Source: Candidatus Lightella neohaematopini (GTDB lineage: Bacteria > Pseudomonadota > Gammaproteobacteria > Enterobacterales > Enterobacteriaceae). From it: DNA of 64,000 nt. The position numbers were made by a program, and so were the translations under genes. This document shows positions 28,370 to 38,208 of the stretch, one piece after another. Numbering within the stretch: position 1 is the first letter of the stretch; each line of letters begins with the position of its first letter. The stretch is from assembly GCA_025728535.1 (NCBI GenBank), contig JAOBJO010000001.1, positions 62,001 to 126,000 on the forward strand. Direction: 5' to 3'. The notes under the pieces were generated by a model that did no database searches, was not told the DNA's origin, and saw only the letters and a program-made list of their open reading frames with translations.

Positions 28370-29169
28370 ATGATAAATAAAAATATAAGAGTTGCAGTAA
28401 CTGGTGCTAATGGACGTATGGGTAAAACCATAATTAAATTAATATTACAAAATAATTATAAAGTAAAATTAGGAGCTGCTATTGTTAGTAATTACTCTAA
28501 ATATAATAATATTGATGTAAGTAAATTAATTGGTTTATCTACCCCAGTAGGAATATTAACTACTAATAATATTAATTTAGTAAATGATAAATTTGATGTA
28601 TTAATAGATTTTACTAATCCTAATAGTAGTATAGAAAGTATTAAAAAATGTTGTAAGTATAGTAAAAATATAGTTATTGGAACTACAGGATTTAATGAAG
28701 AACAAAAAAATATTATAAAAAAAAAAGTAAAATAATTAGTATTTTGCTATCTGAGAATTTTAGTAATGGTATTAATATAATAGTTAATAGTTTATTTAAT
28801 AATATTATTGAACAATTTAATAATATTACTGATGTGCATATTATTGAAACACATCATCGTAACAAACAACAGATACCATCCGGTACAACATTAATGTTGG
28901 CAAAAAAAATTTTTAACTTAATATCAAATAATAAAAATATTAACAGCATAAAAGAAATAAATGATATAAAATTAACTTCTATTAGACTAGGTAATGTTAT
29001 TGGCAAACATAGCATTATATTTATAAATGATTTAGAATGTATAGAAATAAAACATAAAGTGTATCATCGTAAATCTTTTGCTATTGGTGCTATTAAAGCA
29101 GCAAAATGGATTATAAATTATAAAAATGGTTTATTTAGTATAAATGATATTTTTTGTAACCAAAAATAG
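28370..29169 (+). pseudogene. dapB: 4-hydroxy-tetrahydrodipicolinate reductase, frameshifted at a ten-A tract (possibly still functional)
   Basis: DapB makes tetrahydrodipicolinate for mDAP and lysine. The first frame (28370-28735) carries the Rossmann motif VTGANGRMGK, VLIDFTNP and VIGTTGFNEEQ, then hits a stop just after ten consecutive A at 28717-28726. The second frame continues from the same place with ISILLSENFSNGINI, the catalytic ETHHRNKQQIPSGTTL and the C-terminal block, ending at 29169. One extra A in the tract would fuse the two parts into a full-length protein with no other lesion. All conserved residues are intact, unlike an old pseudogene. RNA polymerase slippage on long A tracts is known to rescue such genes in Buchnera and Blochmannia; assembly error is the other explanation. 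Confidence 0.85.
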
Positions 29170-30485: not shown

Positions 30486-31265
30486 CTAAATTTTATTTGT
30501 TAAATAATAATATTGATCAATAGTTATTTCATCAGCTCTTAATGATGGATTTATATTATACTTTACTAAATCCTGTATAGAAAATAATTTTTTTAAGCTA
30601 TTACTTACTTTTTTACGTCTCTGATTAAAAGCTAAATTTAGAATTAATATTAGTTTATCTAAATCAATATTTATTTTCTGATTACGTGGTATAAATTTAA
30701 TTATAGTAGAATAAACTTTTGGGATCGGATAAAATGATGTTGGGGGTATAGTAATAAGCGGTACTACATCATAATAATATTGTATAATAACACTTAGTTT
30801 ACTATATTCTTTATGATTTGGTAAAGCAATAATTCTATTAGCTAACTCTTGTTGTAACATAAAATGCATATCATAAATAACATTAGTATATTTTAACATA
30901 TGAAAAATAATATTTATACAACTATTATATGGTAAATTACCAAATAATCTTAATTTTTGATTAATTTTTCTACTTAATATAAAAAAATTAGTGTTAGTAA
31001 CATTTTGACATATAATATTAATATTATTATTACTAAACTTATTTACTAATTTTGTAGCTAAATCTATATCTATTTCAATTAAAAATAAATATTTTACTAA
31101 ATTTACTAATTTTTTTGTTATAGCTCCAGTACCTGGACCAATTTCTACAATTGTTTGATTGATTTTTGGACATATTAAATGAATAATATTATTTATAGCA
31201 CTAGCATCTTTTAAAAATACTTGACCAAATTTTTTTCTAAAAATTTTTTTATTTAAATTAACCAT
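30486..31265 (-). CDS. rsmA: 16S rRNA dimethyladenosine transferase (KsgA)
   Basis: Dimethylates A1518 and A1519 in 16S rRNA, a late 30S assembly step. GQVFLKDASAINNI at the N-terminus, the SAM-binding EIGPGTGAITKKL, the GNLPYNS catalytic motif and the C-terminal LILNLAFNQRRKKVSNSL are all present. The length is 259 residues (E. coli 273). It is transcribed with apaH. Confidence 0.97.
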   Translation of the reverse strand: MVNLNKKIFRKKFGQVFLKDASAINNIIHLICPKINQTIVEIGPGTGAITKKLVNLVKYLFLIEIDIDLATKLVNKFSNNNINIICQNVTNTNFFILSRKINQKLRLFGNLPYNSCINIIFHMLKYTNVIYDMHFMLQQELANRIIALPNHKEYSKLSVIIQYYYDVVPLITIPPTSFYPIPKVYSTIIKFIPRNQKINIDLDKLILILNLAFNQRRKKVSNSLKKLFSIQDLVKYNINPSLRADEITIDQYYYLTNKI

Positions 31266-32181
31266 ATTATAATTTATGATTATACTTTAACTTCAATTTC
31301 ATTATATTATATATATTATATTTTGTTAAATTCTGCTACTTCTAAAAAAATAATACTACGATATGCTAAAGTTACTAATAAATAATAATCCATAGTAATA
31401 TTTATTAACTTATCAAAGTAATAATATTTTATTAGTGAAATTAGTTAATCATGATACATAGTTAGTATAATATCAACGTGATTTAAATACTTAACTTGAA
31501 AAAATCATCTGCTAGTGATAATCACTATAATTACTTTTTTTAATGAATTAATTAATGAAATAATAATATTAATCTTTTTAGTTCCCAAAAAATGTATCTA
31601 GTATGATAATTTAATCCATAAAGATAAATATATGGATTAGAAATTTTATAATCATATTTTAAGTAGTCATATAATATCATAATACTATTATATAGTAATT
31701 TTTATTAACTAATTTTAATACTTTATTTAGTAATACATAAATTGTAGCTGTAATACGTATATTTTTTATATAAATATCATTAAAGTTATTTTCTCATCAT
31801 TTTAATAAAAATTTAGTATGATTAGTAAAAAAATAATTCTGCTGATATTAACAACAATTTTATTAATTGTTCTAATGATAAGAAATAAAAAATTATTTAA
31901 TAAGTAAAAATTATATCCTTGCTTTAGAGTAATAAAAATATGCTTACTATTACCAGTATCTAATTTATTTTTAATGTATATTAGTGATACTAATAGTTTT
32001 ATTTTTTATATTAGTTGAATAATTATATTTTTAATGGTAATGATGATTATTTTGATTTATTAATTAATAAATTAGGATTAGTGTAAATAATAATATTTAC
32101 TAGCTATACACATTATTCTAAATTAATAATTAAATATAGTCTAATTATTTCTTATAGTTCACCGGCAGAACAATATTATAA
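31266..32181. other. Gene-free stretch at the expected pdxA position; probable pseudogene relic
   Basis: About 916 bases, close to the length of pdxA, lie between rsmA and surA, where enterics carry pdxA in the same direction. No frame survives. Immediately after the surA stop, on the minus strand, a relatively G+C-rich patch (32158-32166) can be read as AGE, at the right distance for the PdxA N-terminal PGEPAG motif, before a stop. That is thin evidence; the rest is featureless A+T. A 29-codon hydrophobic frame (31818-31907, plus) is noted as a separate entry. Confidence 0.4.
31818..31907 (+). other. Tiny hydrophobic open frame, doubtful
   Basis: An ATG-started 29-codon frame encodes a basic start, about 17 hydrophobic residues and a basic end, which looks like a single-pass membrane peptide. 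It has no ribosome binding site and no family I recognise. It lies in a region that looks decayed, and short frames of this kind are common in DNA this rich in A+T. Confidence 0.12.
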
Positions 32182-33441
32182 TTATTCATAATTATTAATA
32201 TTAGAATTTATATAAGATTGATTGTATTGTGTGTTGATAAAAAATTTTCTTATCTCTGAAAGATAACGTTTTAAAATTACTAGATAACTATATTTTCTTA
32301 AAAAATTATTATTTTCATTATAGGTATCTAATAATTGTATAATATACCAGTTATGTTTTATTTTAATTGGGCTGCTAATATCATTAATATTCATATTTAA
32401 AATTACTTTTTTTATTAATGGATGTACATAACTAATATTACTAAACCATATACCAGTAATATAAAAATTTTTATTACCAAATACTAGTCTATTTAAAATA
32501 TCATAAAAATTAATATTTTTACTATAAATTTGCTTTCTAAGTTTATTAAAATTACGTATTAATAAATTATTATTGAAATATTTCCAATTAATTATAACAT
32601 ATCTTATAATATATATTTTATTGTTTAAAATATTTCTATCTAATTTACAGATATTATTTATTTTTACAAAATATATTTTGTTTTTTGCACAGATTGGACC
32701 AATTAATATATTTTTATAAATCTTCTTTATATGTTTTTTTATTAAAAATGGTATACTGTCTATTGATTGCCAATCATTATTATTATATTTTTTTATGTTA
32801 ATTAATTTATTATTTATTAGATATGTTAATTTATTAAAGTGTAAACAATTATTACTATAATCAATAGAATTATTAATTATGTACATCATTTTTATTTTAT
32901 TAGATGTATGTTTCAATAAATTAATTATAAAATAACTTAGTTTAACTCTAATTTTATGAAAATATTTATTTATTATCTGTTTTGACAGAATATCAACTTC
33001 TTGTGTTGAAATTATTGTATTATGTATAATATAGTTAATTATTTGTCTATTTAAAATTATTTGGTAAATTTGATTTTTAACAAAATTAAATCTTATTTTT
33101 GGTGTAAAAAAATTTATATCATCTATATTTATGTCTTTAATAATTTTTGTTGTTATATTTTCTATTTGTTTATCGTTAATAATATTTTTAGATAAAATTA
33201 TATTATTAATTACTAACATATATAAAATTCTATAATATATAATATAATAATCATATTTATTATATAATGTATATGTATTATCTTTTAACACATGTTTAAT
33301 TTCATTATTAATATCACTATCTAAAATTATATTACTATTTACAATAGTATTTATTTTATCTAATAAAATTGGTGTAGAATATATACTACTAGTTAGTATT
33401 AAATTAATAAATATGCTAAATAGCAAGTACATATATTTCAT
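32182..33441 (-). CDS. surA: Periplasmic chaperone SurA, strongly diverged
   Basis: Escorts outer-membrane proteins to the Bam complex; LptD is a main client. An N-terminal signal peptide is followed by LLDKINTIVNSNIILDSDI, matching VDKVAAVVNNGVVLESDV of E. coli. Both parvulin domains can be traced (KLSYFIINLL near residue 168; IIRYVIINWK near 268), but their conserved HILL, GGDLGW-type motifs are largely lost. The C-terminus (SSPIKIKHNWYIIQLLDT) is clearer. At 419 residues it is near normal length. It follows lptD by 15 bases in the same operon. The identity rests on both termini and synteny. Confidence 0.85.
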   Translation of the reverse strand: MKYMYLLFSIFINLILTSSIYSTPILLDKINTIVNSNIILDSDINNEIKHVLKDNTYTLYNKYDYYIIYYRILYMLVINNIILSKNIINDKQIENITTKIIKDINIDDINFFTPKIRFNFVKNQIYQIILNRQIINYIIHNTIISTQEVDILSKQIINKYFHKIRVKLSYFIINLLKHTSNKIKMMYIINNSIDYSNNCLHFNKLTYLINNKLINIKKYNNNDWQSIDSIPFLIKKHIKKIYKNILIGPICAKNKIYFVKINNICKLDRNILNNKIYIIRYVIINWKYFNNNLLIRNFNKLRKQIYSKNINFYDILNRLVFGNKNFYITGIWFSNISYVHPLIKKVILNMNINDISSPIKIKHNWYIIQLLDTYNENNNFLRKYSYLVILKRYLSEIRKFFINTQYNQSYINSNINNYE

Positions 33442-36684: not shown

Positions 36685-38208
36685 ATGAACTATAATCTAT
36701 ATCATCTAGTTCGTCCATGGATTAAAGATATTATTATATTAGAAAATAATTATGATTTATCTAAATATAATATTACTGATATTGTATTACATAGTAGCTT
36801 AGTAACTAAAGGAAGTTTATTTATAGCTATAAGTGGCCACAGTACTCATGGTTATAATTATATTAATATCGCTATCAAAAATGGTGCACAAGCAATAATT
36901 ATTGAATTAACTAATAATAATTATATTAATAATTTAGGATTTTATACTAGTATTCCAATTATTTTATTTAAAAATTTAAAATTAAAATTATCAGCATTAG
37001 CTGGTAGATTTTTTAATCAACCATCAAAAAAGATTAAATTAGTAGGTGTTACTGGTACCAATGGTAAAACCACCATTACTAATTTAGTATCACAATGGAT
37101 ATATTTATTAGGAGAAAATAGTGCAGTGATGAGTACTATAGGTAATGGTATGATCAAAGATAATTACTTATCACCAACATATAATACTACAATATCACCA
37201 ATAGATATTCAAAGACAATTATTAAATTTTGTTTTAAGTGGGGTAAAATTTGTAACATTAGAAGTTTCCTCTCATGGAATTACACAAAATAGAATAGATG
37301 ATTTATATTTTAATGCTGCAATATTTAGTAATATTAGTCATGATCATTTAGATTATCATGGTAGTATGAAACAATATATTTTTAGTAAATGGCAGCTATT
37401 TAGTAAATTCAATATACATCATAATATTATTAATGTTGATGATACGATTGGGGCAATTTGGGCAAACAGAATATCTAACGTTTCAGTAGTATCAATAAGT
37501 AAAAAAATATCTAATTATTATAATAATTATTGGTTATACGCTGATGATATATTATATACTATTAGTAATACTAATATTAAGTTTTGCTCTTTTTGGGGTA
37601 ATGGTAATATTAATACTAAGTTAATTGGTGAATTTAATGTTACAAATGTATTACTAGCACTAGTTACTTTACTATCATTAAATTACCCACTATCGGAATT
37701 AATAAATACTGCTAAATACTTAAAACCAATAGTAGGTAGAATGGAAGTTATAAATGTAGTAAATTATCCAATAATAATTATTGATTATGCACATAATCCT
37801 GAAGCTCTTAAAAAATTATTATTAATTAGTAGAAGTTATTGTAATAATAAATTATGGTGTATATTTGGTTGTGGTGGTGAAAGAGATAAACAAAAAAGAT
37901 CAATGATGGGTTATATTGCTAATAATTATGCTGATATAAGTATTATTACTAGTGATAATCCACGTAATGAATCATTATTATCAATAATTAATGACATAAA
38001 ATTTGGTATGCATAATATTAAAACAGTTAAAATTATAATTGATCGTAGTCAAGCAATTACTTATGCTATAAGTAATGCTAATAAGAAAGATGTTATTGTT
38101 ATTGCTGGTAAGGGTCACGAAAATTATCAAATTATTAAAAATAATTACTTTTATTATTCTGATAAATTTATAGTTAATAATTTATTAAAAAATATAAAAT
38201 GTTACTAA
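36685..38208 (+). CDS. murE: UDP-MurNAc-tripeptide synthetase (meso-DAP adding)
   Basis: Adds the third stem-peptide residue. The ATP loop [15 protein letters not shown] lies near residue 115. The substrate loop ITSDNPRNE near residue 428 carries the DNPR motif of mDAP-specific enzymes, as opposed to lysine-adding ones. YFNAAIFSNISHDHLDYHG is also typical. The length is 507 residues. It overlaps murF by 10 bases. The mDAP specificity ties it to thrA and dapB in this window. Confidence 0.97.
   Translation: MNYNLYHLVRPWIKDIIILENNYDLSKYNITDIVLHSSLVTKGSLFIAISGHSTHGYNYINIAIKNGAQAIIIELTNNNYINNLGFYTSIPIILFKNLKLKLSALAGRFFNQPSKKIKLVGVTGTNGKTTITNLVSQWIYLLGENSAVMSTIGNGMIKDNYLSPTYNTTISPIDIQRQLLNFVLSGVKFVTLEVSSHGITQNRIDDLYFNAAIFSNISHDHLDYHGSMKQYIFSKWQLFSKFNIHHNIINVDDTIGAIWANRISNVSVVSISKKISNYYNNYWLYADDILYTISNTNIKFCSFWGNGNINTKLIGEFNVTNVLLALVTLLSLNYPLSELINTAKYLKPIVGRMEVINVVNYPIIIIDYAHNPEALKKLLLISRSYCNNKLWCIFGCGGERDKQKRSMMGYIANNYADISIITSDNPRNESLLSIINDIKFGMHNIKTVKIIIDRSQAITYAISNANKKDVIVIAGKGHENYQIIKNNYFYYSDKFIVNNLLKNIKCY

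Follow-up and report, generated by a model that had tools for sequence, protein, structure and literature searches.

The dapB gene of the louse symbiont Candidatus Lightella neohaematopini is interrupted by a frameshift within ten consecutive A residues, and our comparative data suggest that it is a functional gene, kept by selection and rescued by slippage of RNA polymerase on this A10 tract. We estimate the probability of this reading at about 0.8. The genome studied (L208) is the draft of the symbiont of the chipmunk louse Neohaematopinus pacificus (Table 2, PMC9376444) and comprises 461,635 bases in six contigs of up to 216,026 bases. The window, i.e., the whole stretch of 64,000 nucleotides analyzed here, corresponds to contig C2:62001-126000. 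It was compared with the congeners L469, L207, L220, L217, L218, and L201 (L201: JAOBJL010000001), so that seven species-level Lightella genomes were covered. These drafts were obtained from separate louse specimens and separate Illumina libraries, with reads of 100 and 160 nt (PMC9376444).

Structure of the dapB Locus

The elements of the locus, with their positions in the window, are as follows:

28370..28735, plus strand: 5′ frame of dapB, NADPH-binding domain, 121 codons from the ATG at 28370 (open reading frame; PF01113 DapB_N, E 2.4e-33; TIGR00036 positions 2-116)
28704..28710, plus strand: upstream A7 tract, in frame (sequence)
28717..28726, plus strand: A10 tract, where slippage presumably occurs; the frame of the remaining gene would need one base more (sequence; exactly A10 in 7/7 genomes)
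28726..29169, plus strand: 3′ part of dapB in the -1 frame, substrate-binding/tetramerisation domain, stop TAG at 29167-29169 (PF05173 DapB_C, E 2.7e-32; TIGR00036 positions 127-269)
28733..28735, plus strand: premature TAA in the original frame (sequence, seven-genome comparison)
28852..28866, plus strand: catalytic HHRNK motif (HHRHK in E. coli), -1 frame (sequence; alignment to E. coli DapB)

The local sequence reads ATT AT[A10] GTA AAA TAA, and the 3′ part begins with AGT at 28726-28728, whose first base is the last A of the tract. The ten A, the stop, and the resumption of DapB sequence in the next frame had been reported in a preliminary description of this DNA and were all confirmed by sequence. 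The claim that one extra A restores the whole protein, including HHRNK, also held: adding one A gives a protein of 266 aa, which reaches 214.5 bits against TIGR00036 (cut-off 122) over positions 2-269 of the 270 in the profile, and its alignment to E. coli DapB (1arz) is free of gaps at the junction. Taken separately, the halves reach 96.9 and 105.0 bits, both below the cut-off. The catalytic HHxxK motif is present in the seven genomes, as HHRNK or, in L217 and L201, as the variants HHRDK or HHQNK. The upstream tract is A7 in L208, A9 in five congeners and interrupted in L201; hence it is not the conserved element. The search for another dapB suggested in the preliminary description was carried out on the whole L208 genome and gave one match to DapB_N and one to DapB_C only, with no second copy.

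The frameshift was found at exactly A10 in 7/7 genomes, the locus being read in each. When dapB was searched in 60 related genomes, all six congeners displayed short open frames, and in more distant relatives the gene was one continuous open frame, some 260-300 codons long. In 8.7 kb of sequence near dapB, lipB, and lptB, the divergence between L208 and L201 is ~15%, as is that of either from the other five genomes, which differ by 7-9% among themselves. As the break is common to all seven genomes, including the most diverged L208 and L201, it is older than the earliest branching among the sampled genomes.

Poly(A) Tracts and Other Split Genes

Split genes were sought by a tract scan and a tblastn frame-split scan (L208, L201, and L207). 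The preliminary description had treated dapB as an isolated case; instead, it turned out to be one of several predicted recoding-dependent genes in L208. The other poly(A) splits are the following:

L208 C2:153305-153314, plus strand, outside the window: lipB split at A10, 7/7 genomes, one additional A required (family model)
L208 C3:46954-46963, plus strand, outside the window: lptB split at A10, 5/7 genomes (family model)
L208 C6:9943-9953, minus strand, outside the window: murB split at A11, L208 only (family model)
L201 C2:64186-64194, minus strand: holA split at A9, L201 only (tract scan)

All five poly(A) splits, i.e., these four and dapB, need an insertion. For lipB, dN/dS is 0.21 in both parts. 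The murB gene is in frame in the six congeners; in five, its tract is C plus A10. Each of the five split lptB copies has a pure A10, and in the two in-frame copies (L207 and L201) the tract is interrupted, which counts for polymerase slippage. The in-frame lptB sequence of L207 is AAAAAAAAGAA; since L207 groups with L220, the carrier of a split copy, the simplest reading is that the L207 gene is probably a repaired, formerly slippage-dependent copy.

Tracts of at least ten A or T are rare in L208 (12 in 461,635 bases). Among coding-strand A tracts of this length in genes, 4 lie at frameshifts and 7 are in frame, whereas the 594 tracts of seven to nine A (A7-A9) are all in frame (Fisher p = 6e-8); part of this contrast may be due to indel mutations being more frequent in longer tracts. 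In many bacteria, runs of at least nine are evidently selected against (PMC1088944). Two A8 candidates, at rpsK/rpsD and fabD/fabG, were rejected as gene borders, and many apparent splits at A7 or T7 as noncoding or antisense noise or gene borders.

Probable Restoration of the Reading Frame

If the 9-bp RNA:DNA hybrid of transcription has to be accommodated within the run, frameshifts on the longest tracts only are as expected. Insertions are the prevailing errors in A/T runs of E. coli and Buchnera transcripts (PMC5574713), and polymerase slippage fits because all five poly(A) splits need an insertion. That study surveyed the transcriptomes of both Buchnera and E. coli without finding a transcription error that restored a frame (PMC5574713), which counts against polymerase slippage. 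Corrected transcripts are reported to represent 12-50% in Buchnera and Blochmannia (PMC5009743).

We propose the following sequence of events. One A would already have been missing from the dapB DNA when the sampled Lightella lineages separated, and ever since. RNA polymerase would slip on A10, so that part of the transcripts would carry 11 A (or 8, or 14); in these the frame would be restored and ribosomes would make full-length DapB. The remaining 10-A transcripts would give a truncated protein of 121 aa, probably useless. The distance from the tract to the stop is 15 codons in L201 and 2 codons in the other six genomes, and a role of its own for the truncated product is unlikely because this C-terminal end is not conserved. 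Expression through slippage at the A tract, as proposed in the preliminary description, is supported by the comparative data, with the polymerase as the probable agent; for dapB, we infer slippage itself, its level (polymerase versus ribosome), and its efficiency.

Alternatively, the mRNA could keep its ten A unmodified and the ribosome could shift by -1 on A_AAA_AAA. This heptamer occurs in the correct phase inside the tract and the direction fits the five poly(A) splits, all of which would also be correctable by such a slip; this counts against the polymerase reading. Also, translational rescue probably exists in L208, as judged from the +1 sites CCC_A and CCC_UGA of asd and coaA in 7/7 genomes (see below). 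E. coli dnaX, a case of -1 ribosomal frameshifting, resembles Lightella dapB in its A-rich slip site and in the direction, and has a Shine-Dalgarno-like element upstream and a hairpin downstream. Unlike in dnaX, neither of these signals was found at Lightella dapB: in the seven genomes, visual inspection of the 40 bases preceding the tract revealed no Shine-Dalgarno-like element, and the sequence downstream displayed no shared fold, with energies near those of shuffled sequence, hence no conserved or unusually stable structure. Moreover, seven A would be enough for the ribosome, yet no A7-A9 tract of L208 is split (0/594), and a tRNA-Lys(CUU) gene exists alongside tRNA-Lys(UUU). On balance, ribosomal -1 frameshifting at dapB appears unlikely, and slippage of the polymerase is the reading that we retain.

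Selection on dapB and Its Pathway

Over 21 genome pairs, dN/dS of dapB was 0.23 in the 5′ part and 0.28 in the 3′ part, near the genome-wide median of ~0.20 (0.20 for L208-L207 and 0.21 for L208-L201; 90th percentile 0.33-0.35). The view that both halves are under selection was thus borne out by the dN/dS test proposed with it. No further stop or frame change was observed in about 266 codons in seven genomes. Against L201 alone, dN/dS was ~0.40 in both parts, a value above the genome's 90th percentile of 0.35 and uncertain owing to small dS; it suggests that selection is somewhat relaxed in this comparison, and counts against a functional dapB.

Real decay can be seen nearby:

31265..32182, minus strand: pdxA remnant, decay control (longest stop-free stretch 67 codons in L208)

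Located 2 kb from dapB, pdxA is decayed in L208 and L201 and intact (332 aa) in L207. To judge by its short stop-free stretches, this neighbor is a picture of real decay, which contrasts with dapB.

The pathway to which dapB belongs was also considered, as its product is needed by the following gene:

36685..38208, plus strand: murE, mDAP-adding ligase (NF001123, 615.7 bits, cut-off 586)

In L208, dapD was confirmed by family model, dapA and dapF were identified by motif, and a dapE-like frame was present in the tract scan; a search of the whole genome gave no match to lysA. The paper describing Lightella lists a retained lysine pathway (PMC9376444). With dapD and murE retained and lysA missing, the DAP pathway seems here to end at mDAP and to serve peptidoglycan only. 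The argument that MurE needs mDAP and that a dead dapB would be costly was strengthened, as murE and dapD were confirmed and would be stranded without dapB.

The question then arises whether dapB could be a recent pseudogene in which decay is still slight. This genome is losing genes, pdxA being an example close by, and the dN/dS against L201 is somewhat high. However, a break common to seven species is not recent, purifying selection has acted on both parts across the whole divergence with no added break, and the intact pathway neighbors would be left stranded along with murE. Relaxed selection and accumulating breaks, the marks of a pseudogene, are not what the seven genomes display. Taken together, selection, the lack of other breaks, the kept pathway, and the absence of a second copy in L208 argue strongly against a pseudogene, an explanation that we consider very improbable.

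It is even harder to believe that two polypeptides, the second from an internal start, together form DapB: a TTG does occur six codons past the tract in L208, but in L207 and L201 the second frame is devoid of ATG, GTG, and TTG over its first 45 codons, start candidates in the other genomes lie at differing places, and the end of the 5′ product varies. Finally, an assembly or sequencing error hiding a genomic tract of 11 A, kept as the alternative in the preliminary description, is excluded for practical purposes: homopolymers are prone to errors and the comparison is one of assemblies, but seven independently sequenced louse libraries all yielded the identical A10 break, A11 tracts were assembled elsewhere in L208, L207, and L201, and lptB shows an 11-base in-frame form in one genome.

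Comparison with Known Systems

Rescue of frameshifted poly(A) genes by RNA polymerase slippage is known for cell-wall genes in Buchnera and a histidine gene in Blochmannia (Tamas et al., 2008, as reported in PMC5009743 and PMC3017870). The Lightella case is similar in that it concerns an AT-rich insect symbiont, a single-base break in a long A tract, a gene otherwise intact, and a cell-wall function among the genes; it differs in the symbiont lineage and in the gene, and slippage in Lightella is deduced from sequence. Ancient homopolymer frameshifts maintained by selection have been described in Blochmannia (Wernegreen et al., 2010, as reported in PMC3017870), and B. vafer alone has eight candidate slippage-rescued genes (PMC3017870). 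As in these ancient frameshifts, the Lightella break is kept across species without decay; the difference is that the seven species are invariant for dapB and lipB, and that one of them presents a probable repair of lptB. In Citrobacter rodentium, slippage on the A11 tract of tssM1 reaches about 20% without other signals (PMC4256274). There too, one inserted A leads to the full-length protein and no ribosomal frameshift signals lie nearby; however, both tssM1 products are needed, whereas the short dapB product is unlikely to have a role.

Three of the features by which slippage-rescued genes are recognized are found in dapB, namely a break in an uninterrupted run of at least about nine A, purifying selection on both parts with no further breaks, and a break common to species; a fourth, a mixture of transcript lengths that includes the in-frame one, is predicted. 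In the literature searched, we found no report of a poly(A) break of dapB in an endosymbiont, and the Lightella paper mentions neither frameshifts nor dapB (PMC9376444). As a predicted case, dapB extends the known poly(A)-slippage genes to a new lineage, with unusually broad conservation and comparative support. It would provide, in a further symbiont lineage, an essential gene whose DNA is broken throughout a genus and which nonetheless remains under normal selection. Also, gene-calling or pseudogene tools that score genes of this sort as absent would give a wrong picture of metabolism in reduced genomes.

A Second Class of Breaks

Two further genes of L208 are interrupted in another manner:

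L208 C6 about 7906, minus strand, outside the window: asd, +1 break at CCC_A (ACTCCCAGTAAT), 7/7 genomes
L208 C6 about 6262, minus strand, outside the window: coaA, +1 break at TTT CCC TGA, 7/7 genomes

The sites are ACT/ACC CCC AGT AAT in asd and TTT CCC TGA ATC in coaA, and the breaks are invariant in the seven genomes. The dN/dS of the two parts is 0.23/0.18 for asd, both of them under selection, and 0.12/0.15 for coaA. Read with the shift, the asd protein reaches 464 bits against TIGR01745, above its cut-off, and the coaA protein reaches 223 bits, just below its cut-off of 235. The sole tRNA-Pro gene found in L208 has the anticodon UGG, and tRNA-Pro(UGG) pairs better with CCA than with CCC. 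The sequence CCC_UGA is a known +1 site, with 15% shifting at the end of E. coli pheL, where the preceding Phe matters (PMC5009743); in coaA, CCC_UGA is likewise preceded by Phe. Both asd and coaA are candidates for ribosomal +1 slippage by tRNA-Pro(UGG). The idea that every CCC codon is a shift site was rejected, as L208 has 63 CCC codons, most of which are decoded without a shift.

We are inclined to think that two genus-wide repair layers coexist in Lightella, i.e., polymerase slippage at A10 (dapB, lipB, and mostly lptB, with murB in one lineage) and ribosomal +1 slippage at CCC (asd and coaA). If both are real, the supply of peptidoglycan precursors would depend on both, because asd and dapB act in one pathway. 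With dapB, lipB, lptB, murB, asd, and coaA in one genome of 0.46 Mb, L208 offers a test bed for tolerated expression error, and the same six genes are suited to separating polymerase slippage from ribosome slippage.

Lineage-specific breaks were also observed in two congeners. In L201, lpxC has a +1 break where a C8 run precedes AGT (C2 about 109413, minus strand), and panB is broken near GTAAAAAATGGGC (C2 about 97972, plus strand). In L207, rnpA appears frameshifted at a T9 run close to the 3′ end of the gene (C5 about 169376, plus strand).
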